Below are positions 974-54,139 of a DNA stretch of 54,139 nt, piece after piece (within the stretch, counting starts at the first letter, position 1; every line of letters starts with the position of its first letter). Below the pieces are notes generated by a model, which did not search any database, was not told where the DNA came from, and was given only the letters and a program-made list of their open reading frames with translations. This DNA is from an uncultured Selenomonadales bacterium (lineage in GTDB: Bacteria; Bacillota; Negativicutes; Selenomonadales; Selenomonadaceae): positions 1 to 54,139 of the forward strand of contig CAMUZG010000015.1 of assembly GCA_947165145.1 (NCBI GenBank). The letters run 5' to 3'. Position numbers and translations under genes: made by a program.

Positions 974-1872
974 TGGCGAGACAAAACGTTTTCGGCACGG
1001 TGTTCGGTGTCGACGCCGGCATGATGCAGTTGGCGGTTTTCCCGAACATGAGCAAGCGGCGGGCAGGCGAAATCGTCGACCGCATTTTTAATTTCTATCA
1101 CAACAAGGACGTGCGATTGGTTATGCCCGCGACCGAAGCTCGTCAATTCCGCAAAGAGGAATACGGTCTGCCCTGCGTCGAACGCGTTCACGTTGACATG
1201 GCGTTGAGTATCGGCGGCGACGGAACTTTGCTCGGCGTCTGCAGAAGATTCGGCAACCAAGGCGTCCCCGTCTGCGGCATCAATCTCGGCACGTTGGGAT
1301 TTCTCGCTGACATTGAACCCCGCGAACTTGAAAGTCGTCTTGCAAAAATTTTGGCGGGTCAATATCGCGTCGAACAACGATTGCTTTTGAGCGGCTACGT
1401 TCGCAACGAACTCGGCGAAAAATTTCTCGGCAACGCAATCAACGACGTGGTCATCACGAAAAGCGGCGTCGCTCGCATGTTGCGACTCGGTCTATACGTC
1501 AACCAAACACACCTCATGGACTACAAAGCGGACGGAATCATCGTGTCAAGCCCGACCGGTTCAACGGCGTATTCATTGAGCGCGGGCGGTCCGATACTCA
1601 ATCCGATGATTCGCGCGTTGCTGTTAACGCCGATTTGTGCGCATACGTTCCAAATGCGACCGCTCGTTGTCAGTGAAGACGACGAAGTTTTAATCAAAGT
1701 TTCCGCCATGCAGGACGTTATCGTCACGCTCGACGGGCAGGTCAGTCACAAAGTTCAGCCCAACGACGAAATCATCGTCCGCAAAGCCAAAACGACCGCG
1801 CAGATTGTCAAGTTCGACGACAAAAATTATTACGACGTGCTCAAGGCAAAAATGTGGAGCGGCGGCAACTGA
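973..1872 (+). CDS. nadK: NAD kinase
   Basis: A 299-residue ATP-NAD kinase that makes NADP from NAD in the cytoplasm. The diagnostic GGDGT motif is at residues 81-85, the GNAIND segment near 153-158, and SSPTGSTAYSLSAGGP at about 192-207. The ATG at 973 overlaps the tlyA stop and has a GGAGA Shine-Dalgarno. Most homologues begin near the MMQLAVFPN segment, so an ATG at 1021 (283 residues) is an alternative, but no good ribosome site precedes it. The last 27 codons including the stop (1792-1872) form the start of a 159-bp segment that is perfectly duplicated immediately downstream. Confidence 0.95.
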   Translation: MARQNVFGTVFGVDAGMMQLAVFPNMSKRRAGEIVDRIFNFYHNKDVRLVMPATEARQFRKEEYGLPCVERVHVDMALSIGGDGTLLGVCRRFGNQGVPVCGINLGTLGFLADIEPRELESRLAKILAGQYRVEQRLLLSGYVRNELGEKFLGNAINDVVITKSGVARMLRLGLYVNQTHLMDYKADGIIVSSPTGSTAYSLSAGGPILNPMIRALLLTPICAHTFQMRPLVVSEDDEVLIKVSAMQDVIVTLDGQVSHKVQPNDEIIVRKAKTTAQIVKFDDKNYYDVLKAKMWSGGN

Positions 1873-2109
1873 ACGGAGGCAATCCCTTTGAGAGACGACA
1901 TTATCGGCAAGCTCACTGCGCAAATTAATGAGTTGCACTTTGCGGAGAATACGACCGCGCAGATTGTCAAGTTCGACGACAAAAATTATTACGACGTGCT
2001 CAAGGCAAAAATGTGGAGCGGCGGCAACTGAACGGAGGCAATCCCTTTGAGAGACGACATTATCGGCAAGCTCACTGCGCAAATTAATGAGTTGCACTTT
2101 GCGGAGAAT
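1792..2109. repeat. Perfect 159-bp tandem duplication
   Basis: Bases 1792-1950 and 1951-2109 are identical by eye. Each unit holds the last 27 codons of nadK including the stop, the 15-bp gap with the GGAGGCAAT ribosome site, and the first 21 codons of the next gene. 159 is a multiple of three, so the first copy of the downstream start runs in frame into the second copy of the nadK tail. Both flanking genes stay intact. The perfect identity points to a very recent event, or to an assembly artefact. Confidence 0.97.
1888..2031 (+). CDS. Chimeric 47-codon ORF created by the duplication
   Basis: The duplicated TTG start at 1888, with its own GGAGG ribosome site, opens a frame of 21 codons identical to the start of the downstream gene, joined at the duplication junction to the last 26 codons of nadK and its TGA. 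It has the same translation signals as the intact downstream gene, so it may be translated. A functional product is unlikely: it is probably a by-product of the duplication. Confidence 0.4.
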   Translation: MRDDIIGKLTAQINELHFAENTTAQIVKFDDKNYYDVLKAKMWSGGN

Positions 2110-4486: not shown

Positions 4487-4861
4487 TGGTGGAGATGAGG
4501 AGAATCGAACTCCTGTCCGAAAATGATGCCGCAAGACTTTCTCCGAGCGCAGTCATTGATCGATTTCAGTCGTGCAAAGTTCAATGACAACCTTTGAACG
4601 ACCAAGCACTTTAGAATTTCCCGACGCTTTACAGTGCGCTCAAGCGTGGTATCCCGTTGTTGGCGTCGACTCCGACCTGACGGGAAGAATCAGTCGGGCG
4701 ACGTGGCGTTAAGCCGCCAGTGCGTACTCTTCGTTCGCAGTTATGTTTTTCAATCCGCGCACCTTTATAGGGTGCGAAGCATTCCGCTTGTTAAACCGGT
4801 TAACGGAGCCGGTGCTCGCTTATCAAACTTCATACATCCCCGTCGAAACCATTACATCCCC
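4487..4861 (-). ncRNA. ssrA: Transfer-messenger RNA (tmRNA)
   Basis: A one-piece tmRNA that rescues stalled ribosomes and tags nascent proteins. The 5' end GGGGATGTAATGGTTTCGAC pairs with CATCTCC before the encoded CCA; the 3' TPsi-like arm contains GGTTCGATTCTCC-type sequence. The message part at 4709-4738 encodes the tag ANEEYALAA and stops with TAA; the resume codon is GCG. The remaining internal part would form the pseudoknots. The length of 375 is normal. It has its own promoter, which overlaps the stop of the upstream DUF2156 gene. Confidence 0.97.
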
Positions 4862-24879: not shown

Positions 24880-24953
24880 TGGAGCGGGCAATGGGAATCG
24901 AACCCACCTCTCAAGCTTGGGAAGCTCGCGTTCTACCGATGAACTATGCCCGC
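24880..24953 (-). tRNA. tRNA-Gly, anticodon CCC
   Basis: A 74-nt cloverleaf. The acceptor GCGGGCA pairs with TGCCCGC, then T and an encoded CCA. The D arm contains AGTTCATCGGTAGAAC, the anticodon arm is CGAGC-TTCCCAA-GCTTG with anticodon CCC, and the T arm is GTGGG-TTCGATT-CCCAT. It reads GGG codons. It starts six bases after the flagellin stop on the same strand. Confidence 0.96.
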
Positions 24954-32764: not shown

Positions 32765-32812
32765 GCAACGTGACGTTGCATCCAACGGTCACGATTCAAC
32801 GTTGCGATGAGT
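32765..32812 (-). repeat. Palindromic dispersed repeat, copy B (inverted)
   Basis: Read on the minus strand this is the same unit as copy C: CGCAACGTTGAATCG, a short spacer, then GGATGCAACGTCACGTTGC. The 15-bp palindrome (32765-32779) is at its outer left end. With copy C it brackets the permease gene as an inverted pair. Confidence 0.85.
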
Positions 32813-44908: not shown

Positions 44909-47869
44909 ATGGAAATTACCGAATCGTTGCCAAAATTTCTTAAGCGCGAATACTTTTCCGAGACTGATGAAAAAATTTTTCGCCCGCAATGTGTGAAGGC
45001 AGAAGACTTGAAGATAAGCGAAGTTTGTTTTTACAAGGTAAATAGGCTGACTTTTGACGAAGAATATCCGCACCGCGAGGCGTTTGAAAATGTTTTGCAG
45101 GCACTCAACAACAACGCGTTCAATTTCGTCTATATTTTGGACGGAGACAAGAACGGCGTTTCATTGTATATCGGAGTGGTTAAGAATCAGCATGAAAACA
45201 AGCCCGTTCTCGGCAAGCTCATGAACGCTGTAAATTGCGGCAAAAATATTGTCGGCGCATTCGAGGGAAACTTCGGAGGCAGTGTTTTAGAAAAACTCAC
45301 GAGCCAAAACTTAGTCGAAACGGTTTTCGATTCAGTACAAAAATTTCGGAATGCGGGCGTGATTCTCGGCATTCCTTCCGTCAACAAAGACGACAGCAAC
45401 GGGAAGTACGGCTTTCAAGGGATTGACAGGCTGATTAACAGTATGCTCGGCTTGAAGTGGCGATTGGTCGTTGTCTGCGAACCAGTTCCCAAAAACGAAG
45501 TCGCGACTGTTCGGGATAACATTTACGAGATTTATAACACCGTGTCGCCTTATGCACAACGTTCGGTTCAACGCTCGGAAAGCAGCGGTCAAAGTTTCAA
45601 CCGTTCTGAAAGTTCTTCGACTGCCAAAGGCACAAACCGTTCCGAAAATAAATCGCACTCCGACACAAGAAATAGACAATCCGACGAGAGTAGCAGTGGT
45701 TATTCCGACCAAACGGGCGATTCTTTTGGCGAGAGCACGACGAAAACTTCCGGTTCAAGTCAAAGTTTCGGAACAAATAGCGGCAAATCTTCATCACTGA
45801 CGACAGAAATTGTCAACAAGAAAGCAAAGGAAATTCTCGACTATATCGACAAGGAACTTTTGGAGCGCGTGAAAATCGGTTTTGCTAAGGGACTGTTCAA
45901 GACTTCGATTTATTACATGGGCGAAAAGCCGACCGATGCCGAACGCTTGAAAGTCGGGATAATGTCGCTGTTTCAAGGAAACAATTCTTCTTACAGCCCG
46001 TTGCGAGCTTATCCGCTGGACGTGGATCGCGACTCCAGAGTTTTGACGGCGTATCAAAGTTTTTACGTGAACGAAAGCAATCTTCCCGCTGATAAATTGA
46101 CGTTGCTCAGTCGCCCGAATTTTGACGGCAGAGTCGGGCTCACGACTTACTTGACGGCGGGCGAAGTCAGTTTGATTGCTGGTCTTCCTCAAAAAGAAGT
46201 GCCGGGTCTTGCCGTAAAAGAAAGCGTTGATTTCGGCTTGAATTTCAATCGCGGCGACGGCAAAATTTTTTTGGGCAACCTTATGCAACACGGGCGACAA
46301 CTTGAAACTGTTCCAATCAAAATCAGCGACGCCGTTTTAAACAAGCACATGTTTATTGCGGGCGTGACGGGTTCAGGCAAAACGACGACTTGCCACAAAA
46401 TCTTGAAAGAAACCGCGCTACATTTCTTGGTTATCGAGCCGTCGACGACTGAATATCGCAACTTTATCAACTCACCACATTTCAGCGACGTTGTTGTTTT
46501 TACTGTCGGAGACGAGACGACTGCGCCATTCCGACTGAATCCGTTTGAACTGGTTCGCGGCGAAAGTGTTTCCGCTCACGCCGACATGCTCAAGGCGACG
46601 TTTACTTCCGCCTTTCCAATGGAAGCGTCAATGCCGCAGATTTTAGAAGAGGCGATTTACAAAGTTTACGAGGACAGAGGTTGGGACATTGACAGCAACA
46701 GAAATCACGTCGTCGAAAGCCGCGCAGATTACAAAGATGGCGATGAGTTCCGCCCCGAAGCCGACGCCTTCCCGACGCTTGCCGACTTTCTTAAAGCGTT
46801 GGAAGATATTGTCGACACGAAAGGTTTTAGTGACAGACTGCGCGACGATTATTGCGGCTCGCTCGTTAGTCGTTTCTCGAACTTGCTTAAAGGCTCCAAA
46901 GGCGCACTTTTTAATTGCAAGCAGTCGACGAATTTTGAACAGCTCATTGATATGAACGTCGTCATTGAAATGGAAAACTTGAAGTCCGCCGAAGATAAAG
47001 CGTTGTTTATGGGTTTTGTCCTAACACGTTTGACGGCTGTTATCAAGCGGCGTCATTTGCTTGACAAAAATTTTCGGCACATCACGCTTGTTGAGGAAGC
47101 ACATCGTCTGTTGTCGCGCGTGGAATTCGGTGACAGCGGCTCCAAACGAACGGCAGTTGCGACTTTTACCGATTTGCTCGCCGAGGTCAGAAAGTACGGC
47201 GAATCTTTTATTGTCGTCGATCAAATTCCCAACAAGCTTGCGCCTGAAGTCCTGAAGAACACGAACACGAAGATAATTCACAGGCTGTTTGCCCGCGACG
47301 ATAAAGAATCCGTCGGCGACACAATGTTAATGGACGACAAGCAAAAATCATTTCTGTCCGCGTTGGAGACAGGTCAAGCGATTGTCTTTTCCGAAGGCAT
47401 GGAACGTCCCGTCCACATAAAAATTCAACCCGTCACCGACACGAGCGAAGGCGTTGTTTCCAATGAAATCGTCCGCGAACGGTTCATGAAATTTTTCGGA
47501 CGCAATTATCGCGTTTCTGAACTCGTGCAAAAATTTTATTTGCCCGCGCAGATGCTTTTGAAAAAAATCGCGGAAGAGTTCACGGCAAATCAAATTTTGT
47601 CTTTGGACACATTGACACTCGGCGAAAACTTCAAACGCGAAGCTACACGGTATCTCGAAATTTTGCAGACAGAATTCGGCGACGAAGCGACAGAATTTTT
47701 CACGGAAAACTTGTCGGCGGAATTTGTCCTTCGACATTCGCGTGATAGAATTTTCGAGGAACGATTGAAAAAATTTTTGTACAGCTTGCTGACGGGCAAA
47801 AAAATTCTCAAAGACTACGAACAGTTCCGCCTGCTTGATGATGTCAAGAAAATTTTAAGGAGGAGTTAA
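44909..47869 (+). CDS. HerA/DUF87-type ATPase with Ser-rich linker
   Basis: A 986-residue P-loop ATPase, first gene of the 3' cluster. The N-terminal domain (about 1-215) is unrecognised. Residues 219-296 form a low-complexity linker of mainly Ser, Gly, Thr, Asn and Arg. Walker A is GVTGSGKTT at 485-493; an FtsK/HerA-like core follows, with Walker B HITLVEEAHRLL at 724-735 and an Arg-containing KIIHRLFARDD motif near 795. The C-terminal 150 residues are helical. HerA-type ATPases form hexamers that move DNA or protein substrates. ATG at 44909 is preceded by AAAGGAA; an in-frame ATG at 44861 lacks a site. No nuclease (NurA) partner is adjacent. Confidence 0.88.
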   Translation: MEITESLPKFLKREYFSETDEKIFRPQCVKAEDLKISEVCFYKVNRLTFDEEYPHREAFENVLQALNNNAFNFVYILDGDKNGVSLYIGVVKNQHENKPVLGKLMNAVNCGKNIVGAFEGNFGGSVLEKLTSQNLVETVFDSVQKFRNAGVILGIPSVNKDDSNGKYGFQGIDRLINSMLGLKWRLVVVCEPVPKNEVATVRDNIYEIYNTVSPYAQRSVQRSESSGQSFNRSESSSTAKGTNRSENKSHSDTRNRQSDESSSGYSDQTGDSFGESTTKTSGSSQSFGTNSGKSSSLTTEIVNKKAKEILDYIDKELLERVKIGFAKGLFKTSIYYMGEKPTDAERLKVGIMSLFQGNNSSYSPLRAYPLDVDRDSRVLTAYQSFYVNESNLPADKLTLLSRPNFDGRVGLTTYLTAGEVSLIAGLPQKEVPGLAVKESVDFGLNFNRGDGKIFLGNLMQHGRQLETVPIKISDAVLNKHMFIAGVTGSGKTTTCHKILKETALHFLVIEPSTTEYRNFINSPHFSDVVVFTVGDETTAPFRLNPFELVRGESVSAHADMLKATFTSAFPMEASMPQILEEAIYKVYEDRGWDIDSNRNHVVESRADYKDGDEFRPEADAFPTLADFLKALEDIVDTKGFSDRLRDDYCGSLVSRFSNLLKGSKGALFNCKQSTNFEQLIDMNVVIEMENLKSAEDKALFMGFVLTRLTAVIKRRHLLDKNFRHITLVEEAHRLLSRVEFGDSGSKRTAVATFTDLLAEVRKYGESFIVVDQIPNKLAPEVLKNTNTKIIHRLFARDDKESVGDTMLMDDKQKSFLSALETGQAIVFSEGMERPVHIKIQPVTDTSEGVVSNEIVRERFMKFFGRNYRVSELVQKFYLPAQMLLKKIAEEFTANQILSLDTLTLGENFKREATRYLEILQTEFGDEATEFFTENLSAEFVLRHSRDRIFEERLKKFLYSLLTGKKILKDYEQFRLLDDVKKILRRS

Positions 47870-47870
47870 A

Positions 47871-48506
47871 ATGTTTGGTTTTCTCGGAGTGATTGTTTCT
47901 GGTTTGAGCAGTGCGCTGAGCGTCGTGGCAAAGCTAGTGCCGGCGATAGTTAAAATTGTCGGAAATGCGTTGGAAAAACTTAGCACGGAGTTGGAGACTT
48001 TCTTCAAAGGATTGAATTTGCTTGAACCGAACGAAACAATGGAAACGATTGGCGACAGGGCATTGCAGGCGGAACAAGACGAACACGAGCCGATTAAAAT
48101 CGAAAACTTCGACAGCCACGAAAAATATTTGGCGGCGATTCGCGAATACGAGCTTGACGCAGAAAAATCCGCGTTCACTTCCCAAGACGACAAACTTCAC
48201 AAGGCGATTGAGGTTATGCTGGCAACGGCAATGTCGCAGTACGGTCAGCCGATGAGCGAATTTGCTCAAATAATTGTTAATAATCCCGACTTTTACAGCA
48301 AGGCAGGGCGTCTTGCCGAGTTCGCGAGTATTGCCCGCAGTGATCCGCAGACCTTCGCGGAAATCGTCAACTACATTGAAAACAAGAACATGAGTACCGA
48401 AAAGAACGACGCCGCCTTCGACAAACTGGTCGACATGGAACGCAAAGTCAATCCCGACGCGCCCGATACGGAAATTTGGTCGGCAGTCAGCGGCATGAAA
48501 AAGTGA
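47871..48506 (+). CDS. Cluster protein of unknown function with N-terminal hydrophobic helix
   Basis: A 211-residue protein. Residues 1-32 (FLGVIVSGLSSALSVVAKLV and onward) are a hydrophobic or amphipathic helix that could touch membrane. The rest is charged and mostly helical, with an acidic segment around 65-90. No family recognised. It starts two bases after the ATPase stop, with AAGGAGG as ribosome site inside the ATPase end, so it is translationally linked to the ATPase. Confidence 0.8.
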   Translation: MFGFLGVIVSGLSSALSVVAKLVPAIVKIVGNALEKLSTELETFFKGLNLLEPNETMETIGDRALQAEQDEHEPIKIENFDSHEKYLAAIREYELDAEKSAFTSQDDKLHKAIEVMLATAMSQYGQPMSEFAQIIVNNPDFYSKAGRLAEFASIARSDPQTFAEIVNYIENKNMSTEKNDAAFDKLVDMERKVNPDAPDTEIWSAVSGMKK

Positions 48507-48518
48507 GGTGTTTTCAAC

Positions 48519-48971
48519 GTGACGAAATTTTATCTGGCGGTTTGCAAAAATAAATTTTACGTTTACGACGAAGCCCGTAAACCGTTTCACGTTGAAGGCG
48601 AACCGTTCTTTGCCTACAACGTGAATAAAATTCGCGCGGCAGTTGCAAAGTTGTGGGAACAAATTGCCGACGAACAAAATCTTGACAAAAACGAAATAAA
48701 TTTTCTCATCGTGTCGAACAGCGACAACGTCCGCAACGAAAGTTTGAGCAAGGAATTAGGCACGGCGATTGTCAAAACGTACGCGCTTGACGAACTTATT
48801 CGGAGTGCACTCACGGAGCTTGCCAAAAATCCAAAGCTTCACATCAACGAATTCGGTCTCAACTATGACGGCGAATGCTACCACTTTGATAACGGTCTGT
48901 TGATTCACGACGATTTCAGTTTGCTTGCCCTGTCGATTGAGCCGTCGGAACTTTTGAAATTTGTCGGCTGA
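48519..48971 (+). CDS. Cluster protein of unknown function
   Basis: A 150-residue soluble protein starting at GTG 48519 after GAGGTG. It alternates predicted strands and helices, beginning KFYLAVCKNKFYVYDEA and containing INFLIVSNSDNVRNESLS. This faintly suggests an actin/Hsp70-like N-terminal subdomain or a Rossmann-type fold, but I cannot support a family. It sits 12 bases after the previous gene and 21 before the GTPase gene, fully inside the cluster. Confidence 0.75.
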   Translation: MTKFYLAVCKNKFYVYDEARKPFHVEGEPFFAYNVNKIRAAVAKLWEQIADEQNLDKNEINFLIVSNSDNVRNESLSKELGTAIVKTYALDELIRSALTELAKNPKLHINEFGLNYDGECYHFDNGLLIHDDFSLLALSIEPSELLKFVG

Positions 48972-48992
48972 ACCGCCAACGGAGGCAATGTC

Positions 48993-50540
48993 ATGAAAAA
49001 AAATGTTTGTAGCAAATGTCACTTTGAGAACAACGCCAATCGCAATTTCTGTGAAAAATGCGGAGCCTTCCTGCACGCGGCGGACTTCGATGAAAGCGTT
49101 TACAATCTGCCCGAAGTGAAAATGATGCGCGTCGTCGATAATCTTTTGCACGTTCCGCACGAGCCGATAAGTTGGGACAATCTCATCGACGCTTACGCCA
49201 TGAAGATTGAGAAACTCAACGCACTGTTCAAACTTCCTGGCATGGGCGCGGAAAATAATTCGGCGATTGTCCAAAAGATTACCGACTTTCTAAGCTTGTG
49301 CAGGAATCCCGATTTTCAAATCGCGTTCGTCGGCACGATAAAGACAGGCAAGTCCACGCTGATTAACGCACTTCTCGGCAAGAATTATGCATCAATGGCA
49401 GTGACGCCCGAAACCGCCGCGTTAACGAAATTCCGCGCAAGTCCCCGCGATTACGTCAAAATAACTTTTTACACGCAGAGCGAATGGGATAAGCTTTGGG
49501 CGTCGCGAACGAGTGGAGCCGAAGCTTTCATGCGCGAATACGAGGAGCTTGACGGCGATAAGCACAAAGGCAAATGGATTAATCACGCGCCGCTTAACAA
49601 ATTCATGGCGAACGATGAGATTCAAGAAGAGTTGAAAATTTGGTCGAGCTCAAAGCGTGCGGAGCATTACTTCGTTAAAGAAATTGAGGTTGGCATATCG
49701 ACGTTGGGAAAAAATTTCCCGCCGCAAGTTGTCTTCGTCGACACTCCTGGACTATCCGACCCCGTCGCCTATCGTTCCGAGCTGACGAAAGAATATATCC
49801 GTCGCGCCAACGCGGTTTTCGTTTGCATAGACGCGCGGAAAGTTCAAAGCGAAGAGATTAAAACCATCTCGTCGGTATTTTCGTTTTCGTCGGACGCCAA
49901 AGACAAAGTTCACATTATCGCCACGCATTGGGACATTCTGAACGACCCCGAAAAAGATTGGGATGAACAGAAAAGTTATCTGGTCAAGCGGCTGACGGGC
50001 AAGGCGTTCTTCGACACGCAAGAAACTGCGGCGACAAATATCATGCATTCGGCGGCATATATCTACAATCTCTGTCTCGATTTTGATTCTTTGAACAGCG
50101 ATGATGAACTTGCCGACCTTGATAATTTCGCGCGGCACGTCCATATTATCGGCAGGAGAGAATTTGTTGCTCGTAATCATTTACCTGCAATCAGCGAAAA
50201 GACTAATATCAGTAAAATTTTGCGCGTGATTCGTGAGAAGCTTGTTGCCAATTACAAAAAACTTTTGGCGCAAGAAATTCAAAGCAAATTCCTGGACGCT
50301 ATCTACAACCTCAATCGCGTGACGAAAGAAAAGAAAGACAGCATGACCGAACTTTTAGCGGCATCACGTTCGACTACTTCTGAACTTGAAGAAAAACTTC
50401 GTGAACAACTTCAAAAATGCGACGAAGTGCGAACAACGTCTGACCAGCTCAAAGAGATCATTAAAAAAGTTAAACAAAAGACAAACACTCGCGCCGACGT
50501 TATCTGCGGCAAGTTGCGTTATAAGTTGAGTCAGCGATGA
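48993..50540 (+). CDS. Zinc-ribbon dynamin-like GTPase
   Basis: A 515-residue GTPase. An N-terminal zinc ribbon (Cys6, Cys9, Cys20, Cys23 in CSKCHFEN ... CEKCGAFL) precedes a large GTPase domain: G1 GTIKTGKST at 114-122, a candidate G2 Thr in [10 protein letters not shown]3 DTPGL at 250-254, and G4 variant THWD at 311-314. A C-terminal coiled coil (about 440-500) contains [14 protein letters not shown]. The spacing resembles bacterial dynamin-like proteins, which bind and remodel membranes on oligomerisation. No transmembrane segment is seen. ATG at 48993 follows GGAGG. It overlaps the LpxD-like gene by four bases. Confidence 0.9.
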
Positions 50541-51478
50541 AAACTGTCCGATTGAACGAACTTGCGGCAAAGTTGGATTTGGGTTTGGCGGGCGATGCGG
50601 AACTTGAAATTTCTTCAATCCGATATGCGCACGAGGCTGACGAAAATTCTTTGGCAATCGCTCACAACGACAAAGACATTTGCCGAACGTCCGCGCAGGC
50701 TGTCTTGACTGAGCCGCGTATTTTGCCCGTCAAAAAAAGTTTTCTTTACAGCGGATTTGGCGAATTGAGCGAGACGGCAGTAAAAATCGCACGGCTTTTC
50801 GTTGCGACAGGCATTTATTCCGACTACGACAAAAATTTTCCGCAGACTTCACGCGGCGGTTCAATGTTCGGAGCAAACGTCGAAATTGGCGAAGAAACTT
50901 TTATCGCGCCATTCGCCAGCATAGGCGAGAATGTTTGCGTCGGCAAGAACTGCAGGATTGAATCGGGTGTCTTCATCGGCTCCGGTACACATATTGGCGA
51001 CGGTGTGAAAATTCTTTCAGGCGCACGTGTTGGCGTAAATTGCCATTATCATTACGACGTTGACGGCGGGCACAAAAGTTTTTGCGGAATCGGGCGGACG
51101 ATTATCGGCGACGGCGTGGAAATCGGTAGCAACACTGTTATTCAACGTGGCTCGTTTTCGGATACGGTTATCGGTGCGGGCACGATTATCGGCAATCTTG
51201 TCGAAATTGCGCACGACGTGAAAATCGGCGCGGATTGTTTAATCGTTTCGCAGGTCGGCATTTGCGGCAACGTCACGATCGGCAACCGTGTTCAGATTTT
51301 CGGGCAAGCGGGCATTTCAAATCGGGTGACAGTCGGTGACGGCGCGATTGTTTTGGCGAAGTCTGTCGTTACGAAAAATCTTCGTGCCGGTCAAAAAGTT
51401 TCGGGCATGTTTGCTCGCGAACACAGCGACGAATTGAAACATCTTGCCAAACTCAGAAAGATTATCGGGAGGGAATGA
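50537..51478 (+). CDS. LpxD-like left-handed beta-helix acyltransferase
   Basis: A 313-residue protein with the layout of UDP-3-O-acylglucosamine N-acyltransferase. An N-terminal uridine-binding-like domain (about 1-100) with [18 protein letters not shown] is followed by hexapeptide repeats (about 105-290), including [44 protein letters not shown] and [10 protein letters not shown], and a C-terminal helix. The [13 protein letters not shown] segment contains candidate catalytic His residues. It may N-acylate a sugar nucleotide for lipid A or another glycan. Its place between a GTPase and a radical SAM module, not in an lpx cluster, suggests a dedicated paralogue. Overlaps the GTPase stop. Confidence 0.87.
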
Positions 51479-51481
51479 TAT

Positions 51482-52246
51482 ATGGGCGGTTGTTGCATAG
51501 GAGATTGTTGCGTAGCAAATTGCGGCTTTTGTTGCGTCTTTGATTGTTGCATAGGAAAAAGTAATTGTTGTGTTGGTGAGCACGCAACGCCTTCCAGCAG
51601 TAGTTCAAGCAAAAAACATCAAGAAGAAGATCATGCGGCAATGATTGCTAATGAGCTTGCGGAGATGCGTTCGCGGTCAGCGTCGGAGGCTCGGAGGCAG
51701 GAAGAAGAAGTTATCGCCGAAACGAACAAAACTATGGAAGAATTTATCAAGTGGATTCAAGACGAGAACAAGAAGCAATACGGCGGACGCAGCTTGAACA
51801 TAAACATTGAGCGAATTAAGGAGCTCAACGAGAACTTGCGGAAAAAAATCGTCGGCTTTATCGGCAAACGTCTCAATGATAAAATCGTCGACACGAATCC
51901 GGAAGTCTCAACGATTCTCAACGAACGCGACAACAGTAAACGCAAGAAAAATTTTGACGAATTCTATCAGGCTCGAATGCGTGATGCGATTCGCGAACTT
52001 ATTGTTGCCATTGAAATTTCCGTCCGTGAACAATCCGACAGTATAGAACGCGAAATTCAAAACCGAATCAAAGAGCTCAACAACACAATGACGGAAGAAA
52101 CTCGCGCCCTGGAAGATTTGAAACGTCTCAAGGAACAGGAAAATTCGCGTGTCGCCGAAAAGCAGGTCGAATACATGTACTATATCAACCTGTGCGACAT
52201 CATGTACGACGAGCTGAAGATAAGCGGCTTGGATATCGGCAGGTGA
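51482..52246 (+). CDS. Cys-rich N-terminus coiled-coil protein
   Basis: A 254-residue protein in two parts. Residues 4-30 contain 11 Cys, mostly as CC pairs (4-5, 9-10, 14, 17-18, 22-23, 29-30) spaced by Gly and hydrophobic residues. A Ser run (SSSSSS near 38-44) leads into a highly charged helical part (about 45-245) likely to form coiled coil. The Cys segment is coded by imperfect short repeats around GATTGTTGCATAGG. I do not know the family. The next gene is a radical SAM/SPASM enzyme, so the Cys segment may be a modification substrate or a metal site; both are inferences. ATG at 51482 follows GGGAGGG. Confidence 0.82.
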   Translation: MGGCCIGDCCVANCGFCCVFDCCIGKSNCCVGEHATPSSSSSSKKHQEEDHAAMIANELAEMRSRSASEARRQEEEVIAETNKTMEEFIKWIQDENKKQYGGRSLNINIERIKELNENLRKKIVGFIGKRLNDKIVDTNPEVSTILNERDNSKRKKNFDEFYQARMRDAIRELIVAIEISVREQSDSIEREIQNRIKELNNTMTEETRALEDLKRLKEQENSRVAEKQVEYMYYINLCDIMYDELKISGLDIGR

Positions 52247-52252
52247 AACGGC

Positions 52253-53605
52253 ATGGAGACGCTTATTTCGGGAAATGAAAAAATTCTCGCGTTCATGTAT
52301 GCGTTGGGCGGCGATTTCAATTTGAGCGGCACGAAATTTGACGAGATAGAAAAAAATTTTCGAACGACGATTGAAAATGCCGTAGCAGTTCAACCGTCAA
52401 CTTTCAATTATTCTTTCGAGACGCCGCAAAAAATTTTGGTTTACAACACGCTTTACAATTCGTTGGTGAAGTTGACGCCCGAAGAATTTTCGGAGCTCGG
52501 TGGCGAAAAAAATTGCAATGAAGAATTGCGGCGGAAATTTTTGGAGGCAGGTCTCCTCGTTGCGGCGGGAACTGATGAACGCGAAAATTATCGGCGGTGG
52601 CGATTGGAATCACTCAAGCACAAGGAACATCTTTCAATCAACGTGACGACAACGCTCAAATGCAACGCCCGCTGTCCTTACTGTTACGAACGCGGCGTCG
52701 AACATGTTGACTTCGACGAAACGAAAATTGACGCGCTAATAAATTTCATCAAGCGGCACAAAAAAAATTTGCCCGTTCAACTGAATTGGTTTGGCGGAGA
52801 GCCATTCCTCAATCCGAAAATGATTGACGCGGTGACAACGCGGCTCGGCGAACTGGGCTTTGAATTCGAGTGTTTTGCGATAACCAACGGTAGCTTAATC
52901 ACGCGGCGGCTGATTGAAAGCAAATTCCCGAAATGGCATCTGCGCGGTGTGCAAATTACACTGGACGGGACAGCGGAGCAATATGAGCGGCGCAAAGCTT
53001 ATGTCGACGGACAACGACAGGTTTTCAAAAAAATTCTCAACCGTATCAAATGGCTTGCCGAGGCGGGAATTCACGTGGACATTCGCCTGAACATTGACCG
53101 CAAGAACATGAACGACATTTTGGATTTGGTGTACACGTTGCAGGCGCGTTTCGACGGCAACACTCACGTTGTCTATTATCCCGCGTTCGTCACGGGTTTG
53201 AAAGATAAATTGACCGATGCCGAAAAACTTTCCTGCGTGAAAAAAATTTTCGAGGCTTTGGCGAATCCAGACAAGATGAGCATAAATAATCGTTTGTATT
53301 CCTTCCCGCGAGATATGCCTTGCATGAGAAATGACCCGCAAGCTTTTTCCGTCGACGTTTACGGCAGAGTTTACAACTGCGAACATTTGGTAGGGCGCAA
53401 AGAAAAATCTTTGGGCACTTTGAAACGTCTGCCGAAAAAAATTAATGAGGCGCGGCTTGATGAACCGTTGCGTGAAGAATGTGCGACTTGCGTCTTTCTG
53501 CCGAAATGCATGAGCGGTTGCTCGTCAAACTTGCGGACGGGCGACGCCGCTTGCATGATTGAACGCTACTTAATTTCGGCTTACTTGGAATTCATCAGCG
53601 AATAA
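52253..53605 (+). CDS. Radical SAM/SPASM protein, peptide-maturase type
   Basis: A 450-residue radical SAM enzyme. An N-terminal domain (about 55-110), with VYNTLYNSLVKLTPEEF, resembles the leader region of anaerobic sulfatase-maturase and RiPP-maturase relatives. The cluster motif CNARCPYC is at 137-144; QLNWFGGEPFLNP and ITLDGTAEQYERRK follow. A C-terminal SPASM region has Cys in RVYNCEHL, ECATCVFLPKCMSGCSS and ACMIERYL for auxiliary Fe-S clusters. Such enzymes modify Cys, Ser or other residues in peptides or proteins. The candidate partner is the preceding Cys-rich protein, six bases upstream. ATG at 52253. Confidence 0.92.
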   Translation: METLISGNEKILAFMYALGGDFNLSGTKFDEIEKNFRTTIENAVAVQPSTFNYSFETPQKILVYNTLYNSLVKLTPEEFSELGGEKNCNEELRRKFLEAGLLVAAGTDERENYRRWRLESLKHKEHLSINVTTTLKCNARCPYCYERGVEHVDFDETKIDALINFIKRHKKNLPVQLNWFGGEPFLNPKMIDAVTTRLGELGFEFECFAITNGSLITRRLIESKFPKWHLRGVQITLDGTAEQYERRKAYVDGQRQVFKKILNRIKWLAEAGIHVDIRLNIDRKNMNDILDLVYTLQARFDGNTHVVYYPAFVTGLKDKLTDAEKLSCVKKIFEALANPDKMSINNRLYSFPRDMPCMRNDPQAFSVDVYGRVYNCEHLVGRKEKSLGTLKRLPKKINEARLDEPLREECATCVFLPKCMSGCSSNLRTGDAACMIERYLISAYLEFISE

Positions 53606-53616
53606 CGGAGGATTTC

Positions 53617-53940
53617 ATGGAAAAACTTTTGGAGCAAATTTTGTCTCAACAGGAATTGATACTCAAACAACAGCAGGAAATTTTATCGGCGGTCAATCGC
53701 CTGGAGAATTCGGCGAACATGATGAATTTCAAAATGCAACGGCAGTACGACGAATTGAACTCACGGCTTGAAATAAATGAACGTTCGACGCGGCAAATAG
53801 ATGAGCAGTTGGCATTGGCAAACGAATTGCGGCGCGACGAGCTTAAAGACTTGCAACCGACATTGAAACAACTGCAGGAGCTGGAAGAATTTTTGCGGCT
53901 TGATATGGCGACGCATCTTCTCAGCACTTTGGAGGAATAA
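53617..53940 (+). CDS. Short coiled-coil protein
   Basis: A 107-residue protein that is almost entirely predicted coiled coil, rich in Gln, Glu and Leu (KLLEQILSQQELILKQQQEI at the start). No family recognised. ATG at 53617 follows GGAGG. It lies 11 bases after the radical SAM gene and three before the next coiled-coil frame, as part of the cluster. Confidence 0.75.
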   Translation: MEKLLEQILSQQELILKQQQEILSAVNRLENSANMMNFKMQRQYDELNSRLEINERSTRQIDEQLALANELRRDELKDLQPTLKQLQELEEFLRLDMATHLLSTLEE

Positions 53941-53943
53941 CAC

Positions 53944-54139
53944 ATGGAAGAATTTTTTCTTAAGCTCGGTTTGATGACGCAAAAAAATCACGCGGAAATT
54001 ATTCGGGAGATTGACGGCTTACGAACGAGCGTTGAGGCATTGACGGCAGAGATTGCCAAACTGAATTCGCAAATCGCCGAATCGTTTTCACGGGTTGAGA
54101 CCGCTCAAGCTGATTCAGAGAAAAAAATTACTGCGCTTG
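53944..54139 (+). CDS. Coiled-coil protein, partial (cut by window end)
   Basis: An open frame from ATG 53944 runs off the end of the window (65 codons visible). It begins MEEFFLKLGLMTQKN and continues with a heptad-like EIIREIDGLRTSVEALTAEI region. Its first residues parallel the previous gene (short acidic start, then coiled coil), so the two may be paralogues or interacting partners. The C-terminus is unknown. Confidence 0.65.
   Translation, partial: MEEFFLKLGLMTQKNHAEIIREIDGLRTSVEALTAEIAKLNSQIAESFSRVETAQADSEKKITAL

Follow-up and report, generated by a model that had tools for sequence, protein, structure and literature searches.

At the end of a 54,139-nucleotide contig from an uncultured Selenomonadales bacterium (NCBI GenBank assembly GCA_947165145.1, contig CAMUZG010000015.1; this whole contig, C15, is called the window below), the forward strand carries a run of nine genes, A to I, from position 44909 to the contig end, eight of them complete and the ninth present as its start. 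They encode, among smaller proteins, a HerA/DUF87-type ATPase (A), a dynamin-like GTPase (D), a paralogue of LpxD (E), a protein with a Cys-rich head (F) and an enzyme of the radical S-adenosylmethionine (SAM)/SPASM peptide-maturase type (G). Within one family, some bacteria of the rumen and gut share the conserved cluster. We tentatively propose, with a probability of about 0.4, that its three arms make up an accessory system for membrane protection or conflict, in which a membrane head is matured post-translationally. No tested system fits the whole, which is built from known protein families.

Results

Layout and conservation of the cluster

An original prediction, made from the letters of the window, had described eight genes and the start of a ninth in one direction with short gaps or overlaps, and this layout was confirmed (Table 1), with gaps from A to I of 1, 12, 21, -4, 3, 6, 11 and 3 bases. 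It had seen no internal terminator either, and none is supported within the nine-gene run (19 terminator-like sites, with 17.7 expected). Its call for the DNA past position 54139 is answered by contig C40 of the same genome (82.78% complete, 1.94 Mb): the last 55 bases of C15 are the first 55 of C40, and the last 1140 bases of C15 have a match in C40 and in no other contig of the genome, which is what adjacent pieces of one assembly should show. The end of gene I is at C40:729, and ftsL and rsmH follow on the opposite strand (convergent), so that the cluster is bounded by the gene of an AmmeMemoRadiSam-type enzyme upstream and by ftsL downstream. The join falls inside a 96-base tandem repeat of gene I, and the repeat number in this gene is therefore unsure.

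A profile search for E (E <= 1e-70) found it in 13 of 189 genomes of the family, and the Cys-headed F marks the same 13 (the contig of one, G753, ends within F). Ten of these carriers have the full order A-B-C-D-E-F-G, while the contigs of the other three are cut and agree in what remains. Across nine loci the gap between E and F measures 2-10 bases and that between F and G 1-6, the exception being L073 (276 bases, with a small gene between F and G). Gene G (E <= 1e-60) is present in 10 of the 66 genomes of the genus and in the two carriers outside it, and a DNA scan with G gave 11 loci in named Selenomonadales or Selenomonadaceae records, including Mitsuokella jalaludinii DSM 13811 (some loci are one contig under two identifiers, e.g. 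L038 = G760 and L047 = L074 = G039). Among 398 genomes drawn from the phylum, F is found in two, the window's own and G039. The ratio of nonsynonymous to synonymous substitution rates (dN/dS) lies at 0.09-0.33 in 15 of 16 comparisons (genes A-H against two relatives), the sixteenth, for H, being saturated; together with the recurrent gene order, this purifying selection speaks for more than chance. The original prediction had taken the genes for one unnamed multi-gene unit, which adjacency in this genome only would have contradicted; since the order recurs in other genomes, that objection falls and the unit stands. Two further pieces were seen: a fragment of G in another record (L048) and, in G759 (L162), broken E- and F-type gene pieces with the rest of the cluster not on that contig, a decayed copy.

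The flanks vary between carriers, and the cluster is therefore an accessory locus. Beside it lie ftsL in the window's genome, birA and flagellin in G760, ispG and metG in G148 (the ispG-side flank is common to two carriers), a CheW-like and an AmmeMemoRadiSam A gene in G012 (a pair common to three carriers) and, in a single carrier, G730, a type IIG restriction enzyme gene immediately downstream of the cluster. The upstream neighbour of the cluster is present in 59 of the 66 genus genomes; 29 other loci with this neighbour have, in the roughly 1.5 kb read downstream, neither the cluster nor ftsL/rsmH, and their downstream genes vary, so that no clean empty insertion site was shown. Carriage by phages was considered and rejected: the D profile found no relative in viral contigs, and the G profile gave 109 candidates, the best 80 of these 109 being 21-37% identical in their best segment. 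Gene A has two matches in phage records. In one record labelled Bacteriophage sp. (L090, MT837341.1), a homologue of A occurs together with what looks by eye like an integrase gene; a further gene, of which the start is present, weakly resembles dynamin group c12, without Pfam match.

The LpxD paralogue, the Cys-rich head and the maturase

E matches the LpxD family (1.5e-59; 201.9 bits, cut-off 207) and is 31.5% identical to a canonical LpxD encoded elsewhere in the genome. The active site of LpxD contains a catalytic His, a Phe that stacks on uracil and a second His. In E the catalytic His is kept in 12 of 12 sequences, and both the uracil-stacking Phe and the second His are absent in all 12; the canonical copy has all three residues. 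Judged by these residues, E should still transfer acyl groups, hardly to UDP-glucosamine.

The head of F carries eight Cys invariant across 12 homologues, ten of which have the motif CX3D in it (these head statistics treat related sequences as independent). In the predicted structure the confidence score pLDDT (predicted local distance difference test) is 34-37 over residues 1-40, which are predicted to be disordered, and 80-88 over residues 51-200. The body of F is homologous to that of headless relatives (hhalign probability 97.6, E 4.2e-12, columns 45-211 only), whose first ~45 residues are hydrophobic and start with MGFF; in F they are Cys-rich instead. Those relatives in G117, G062 and G045 adjoin genes of D-like GTPases, and neither E nor G lies in their loci (in G117, E and G were not found genome-wide at the thresholds used), so that the Cys-headed F is the only form found with E and G. 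Furthermore, in G756, G730 and G108 the E protein begins with a fused F-like domain, with a Cys-rich head in both proteins whose start is seen, which ties E to F. The plainest explanation would be that a modified Cys head does the job of the hydrophobic head. A protein of L091 (G040) also matches one headless relative, its own start being unsettled.

G matches Radical_SAM (2.1e-14) and falls among the SPASM peptide maturases; Cys 137, 141 and 144 and seven C-terminal Cys are invariant in 11 of 11 aligned sequences, as the CX3CX2C motif and a SPASM domain demand. Its nearest models are those of the CefB, geopeptide and Clo7bot maturases, PapB being matched too, and its best solved relative is 5wgg, which we take to be the thioether enzyme CteB. 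PapB is reported to form Cys-Asp thioethers in CX3D, with other spacings tolerated (PMC9413430). That F would be matured by G and E is well motivated, and the suggestion of the original prediction that the Cys-rich protein is the substrate of the radical SAM enzyme has gained support of an indirect kind. In carrier G746, on a contig other than the cluster's, L163:985-3325 holds a pair of neighbouring radical SAM genes distantly related to G.

The dynamin-like GTPase and gene C

D is a dynamin-like GTPase by its Dynamin_N match (1.8e-17; 64.3 bits, cut-off 27), and the match of its zinc ribbon is slightly below the Pfam cut-off. It resembles 5owv (E 1.1e-20), presumably the Campylobacter dynamin-like protein, and matches parts of the LeoA and LeoBC models; the cluster is not a LeoABC system, having one dynamin gene only and no LeoA/B/C set. 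A D homologue is also found in L093 (G131). Next to another one, in [Eubacterium] eligens (L089), a protein considered as a further F was set aside, being F-like by position and head only, with no sequence match.

The model of C has an RNase H/actin-like (ASKHA) resemblance at borderline Z, and C matched no immunity family. Homology of C to the small proteins that follow B in distant loci was not established (hhalign probabilities 3.1 and 1.4).

The ATPase, its partner B and their wider family

A has a DUF87/HerA match (E 1.3e-7; 32.4 bits, cut-off 23.2) and a partial one to the NCBIfam 'serine-rich protein' NF033849 (168.9 bits, cut-off 650). It is composed of an N-terminal domain, a Ser-rich linker (about residues 212-300, 31% Ser across 89 residues) and an ATPase domain with the P-loop GVTGSGKT and a Walker B-type LVEEAHR (read by eye). 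A scored below the cut-offs of two anti-phage HerA models, 50.4 against 800 and 35.3 against 850, which we take to be those named HerA-SIR2 and HerA-DUF4297, and the nine proteins gave no SIR2 or nuclease partner in Pfam, NCBIfam and PADLOC searches.

In a tree of 38 A relatives (without L043, L069-L072, L074 and L077, which are duplicates, near-duplicates or fragments), the nine cluster sequences form one clade (100/100), nested in a larger clade (23 rows, 100/99) with 14 sequences neighboured by B. Thirteen of the 14 toxin-labelled sequences form a separate clade (100/100), the fourteenth, L061, being a long branch of unsure place; L066 and L090 bear the label 'toxin' though no nuclease was shown there. 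B follows A in all 12 distant B-type loci of the bacterial family, the end of A being broken in L060. Homology between the two B families is supported by hhalign (98.9, E 1.9e-17), and the heads of B are hydrophobic, many in the distant B family starting with MG[FW][FW]S. Plasmids of Acinetobacter piscicola (where a 78-residue gene intervenes) and Photobacterium damselae also have B shortly after A; they are two of the six loci read among 296 A-matching plasmid records.

In the other branch of A, a Pfam-confirmed nuclease of the HNH superfamily follows A in seven of ten family loci (L065 and L067 are alike by eye, and L066 has dynamins at that position), and dynamin-like genes are present in nine of the ten. 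The gene next after the nuclease is SUFU in L062-L064, SUKH-type in L061, L067 and L068, and a below-cut-off DUF6985 in L075 and L076. Plasmids of E. coli and Treponema carry two dynamin genes, a small gene, A, a nuclease (Pfam LHH, Colicin-DNase) and a SMI1/KNR4 gene; a plasmid of Exiguobacterium carries A, nuclease and SMI1/KNR4 without an annotated dynamin, and upstream a protein weakly like a dynamin group, without Pfam match. In the Planktothrix plasmid locus L252 neither the B-type nor the nuclease pattern is clear. Having such toxin-type, dynamin-linked relatives, A belongs, by homology, to a family with conflict-type relatives, and through them the link to conflict systems proposed in the original prediction has gained support, again indirect.

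Some further loci of this family were seen. The HerA/DUF87 loci (L061-L068, L075, L076 and, on plasmids, L251, L253 and L254), most of them with dynamin-like genes, come from several phyla. In L058 a distant A-B pair lies ~4 kb from MkoA-like (4e-90) and MkoB-like (1.4e-7) genes, separated from them by genes for a PP2C phosphatase and a kinase-like protein. A protein of ~1000 residues (c8; L052:13977-16973 and relatives) is encoded upstream of A-B pairs; it gave no Pfam, NCBIfam or PDB sequence match, and its assignment as Hsp70/actin-like was rejected, since it came from motifs seen by eye and the sequence searches were empty.

Comparison with known systems

The family calls of the original prediction were borne out by family searches (A as DUF87/HerA, D as Dynamin_N, E as LpxD, G as Radical_SAM); B, C, F, H and I gave no match above a curated cut-off. 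Membership of a known defence system was not upheld: the PADLOC matches of the nine proteins are partial only, the best being mad8 for A (4.4e-21), LeoA for D (5.1e-13) and pVip for G (1.2e-18). No Pfam toxin or immunity match was found among the nine proteins, such genes lying beside distant A homologues.

The nearest whole loci are those with HerA/DUF87, a dynamin pair, an HNH nuclease and SMI1/KNR4. Their ATPase is a homologue of A (the E. coli plasmid protein shows 26.5% identity to it over 82%), and dynamin-like genes lie near the ATPase in both; however, those loci carry a nuclease/immunity pair where the window has B, C, E, F, G, H and I. The A-B loci of Selenomonadaceae and of the Acinetobacter piscicola and Photobacterium damselae plasmids share homologous A and B in the same order, while the distant Selenomonadaceae ones have no E, F or G match among clustered genes and several hold c8 instead. 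D resembles the dynamin-like pairs of Campylobacter (DLP1/2; PMC6104087) and, in part, LeoABC, whereas here there is one dynamin gene plus F, not a pair, and a zinc ribbon and extra enzymes are added. A ranthipeptide is defined by a thioether from Cys to a carbon other than the alpha carbon. With the ranthipeptide-type maturases (PapB, CefB, CteB) G shares the fold, the SPASM cysteines, a Cys-rich neighbour protein and CX3D (10 of 12 heads); it differs in scoring below all their cut-offs and in a presumed substrate head that is N-terminal on a large helical protein. E shares family and catalytic His with the LpxD of lipid A synthesis, yet lacks the two residues named above, in a genome that has a separate canonical LpxD.

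In the open-licence literature searched there was no paper on HerA with dynamin-like and radical SAM proteins, or on dynamin with SPASM, and none on 'Cys-every-fifth'. Among the matches listed, no title joins HerA and dynamin in a bacterial system and none concerns a polymorphic toxin with dynamin or HerA; no system name was found in the literature for the dynamin/HNH/SMI1/DUF87 loci.

Other features of the genome

A 19-base sequence, CAACGTGACGTTGCATCCA, is a dispersed repeat with 62 copies in the genome (<=1 mismatch; reversed control 0), which frequently stand in tandem, 76-146 bases apart; sites lie at window positions 32766, 33716, 41793 and 42156 and at 3893-4297 of C40 (L006). Window positions 1792-2109 are a perfect 159-base tandem duplication, in two copies.

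Table 1. Positions of the cluster genes and of two RNA genes in the window.
Feature	Position	Strand	Description
Gene A	44909..47869	+	986-aa HerA/DUF87-type ATPase; possible earlier GTG start 44861
Gene B	47871..48506	+	211 aa, hydrophobic N-terminal head; homologous to protein after distant A homologues
Gene C	48519..48971	+	150 aa, GTG start; RNase H/actin-like look of model, borderline Z
Gene D	48993..50540	+	515-aa dynamin-like GTPase, N-terminal zinc ribbon (Cys 6, 9, 20, 23)
Gene E	50537..51478	+	313-aa LpxD paralogue; catalytic His226 at 51212-51214
Gene F	51482..52246	+	254 aa; Cys-rich N-terminal head (about aa 1-30), long-helix body
Cys-rich head of F	51482..51571	+	presumed substrate of G and/or E
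Gene G	52253..53605	+	450-aa radical SAM/SPASM peptide-maturase-type; CNARCPYC at 52661-52684
Gene H	53617..53940	+	107 aa, coiled-coil-type sequence (by eye)
Gene I	53944..54139	+	first 65 codons, rest on C40 (L006:1-729); coiled-coil-type (by eye), 96-base tandem repeat
tmRNA gene	4487-4861	-	tag ANEEYALAA
tRNA-Gly(ccc)	24880-24953	-	

Discussion

In the scheme that we infer for the chemistry of G and E, the membrane binding, the trigger and the purpose, a motor or sensor arm would be formed by A, a probable ring ATPase, acting with B, which would enter the membrane through its hydrophobic head. In the remodelling arm D would work with F, the helical body of F lying on the membrane with the head as its anchor. 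In the maturation arm G would cross-link the Cys-rich head of F (thioethers being most likely, perhaps at Cys-X3-Asp where present) and E, as an LpxD paralogue freed of the UDP-sugar, might acylate F or a partner; the finished head would take the place of the hydrophobic head borne by the relatives of F. Upon attack or envelope damage, A and B would trigger D and F to seal, tubulate or close off the membrane, and the most likely purpose is membrane defence or conflict.

Several observations weigh against this scheme. G is below every NCBIfam cut-off (141.6 bits against 600 for CefB and 139.6 against 400 for geopeptide; with PapB, 95.7 against 340, and the TIGR04463 and Clo7bot cut-offs are likewise not reached), and the usual radical SAM peptides have a C-terminal core, where that of F would be N-terminal. 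The heads of L042 and L043 (two of the 12) are without CX3D, so that PapB-like chemistry at this motif cannot be general, and the BAR-like match of F is within the chance range for long helices. Nothing can be learned from the residue of E where LpxD has its Tyr, as the canonical copy also lacks the Tyr. In the B-type branch, to which A itself belongs, dynamin-like genes are found in just four of 12 distant loci, and A is not followed by a nuclease. Pfam and NCBIfam searches recognised no transporter or protease in the nine proteins, and the scanned neighbours of the window's own copy are housekeeping-type genes, so that a defence-island location, for which the original prediction had asked a check, was not borne out for this copy.

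The genes after A in its other branch lend themselves to a different explanation, an interbacterial weapon, in which A would be a toxin-loading or export motor, B a membrane-active effector standing where the other branch has a nuclease toxin, C perhaps an immunity protein, and D-G would serve delivery through the envelope. The nuclease followed by a SUFU, SUKH-type or DUF6985-like gene in distant family loci (7/10), the nuclease and SMI1/KNR4 after A on the E. coli, Treponema and Exiguobacterium plasmids and the hydrophobic head of B all suit it; we nevertheless consider it unlikely, as B is conserved and not polymorphic (following A in 12 of 12 distant B-type loci and closely on two plasmids), no secretion machine was seen (signal peptides were not tested for) and C gave no immunity family, its model being RNase H/actin-like at borderline Z. 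Somewhat less probable still is a product akin to the ribosomally synthesized and post-translationally modified peptides, i.e. a lipidated, cross-linked peptide with F as precursor, G and E as tailoring enzymes, A-B as exporter and D, H and I as accessory proteins. G stands among peptide maturases, F is Cys-rich and adjoins G in the carriers, and E is an acyltransferase relative, but the Cys part of F is N-terminal on a conserved helical body of 200 residues under purifying selection (dN/dS of F 0.13-0.15), no protease or ABC exporter was recognised (Pfam, NCBIfam), and loci that have neither G nor F contain homologues of A and B.

Dynamin-like proteins such as DynA preserve membrane integrity (PMC8844932), and this membrane maintenance, the derivation of E from lipid A enzymes and the housekeeping-type flanks would agree with an envelope-stress or membrane-repair operon that has no conflict role. 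The patchy distribution (13 of 189 family genomes), the shifting neighbours and the plasmid relatives of A suit an accessory, mobile trait better, and we hold such an operon to be about as improbable as the modified peptide. Least credible by far is that several independent units stand side by side by accident: distant A-B pairs and D-F-like pairs do occur apart, yet 10 of 13 carriers keep A-G in unbroken order at short spacing, in surroundings that differ.

Within the proposed three-arm system, a bolder and more doubtful version would make the cluster a bacterial counterpart of the N-BAR/dynamin pair. F would then be a membrane-curving helical adaptor for the dynamin-like GTPase, its inserted N-terminal segment being replaced by a Cys-rich peptide. 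Two dedicated enzymes, a radical SAM/SPASM cross-linker and a protein acyltransferase derived from the lipid A enzyme LpxD, would make this peptide membrane-active, and a HerA-type ATPase from a family of conflict systems would control the whole.

If the three-arm reading is true, peptide-maturation chemistry would be joined in these bacteria to a membrane-remodelling GTPase, a combination not found in the open-licence literature searched. E would offer a case, accessible to experiment, in which a paralogue of LpxD has taken on a different acceptor, possibly a protein. Additionally, the cluster has brought to light a wide family of dynamin-associated HerA/DUF87 loci, which extends to plasmids of other phyla and includes the window's cluster as one branch.

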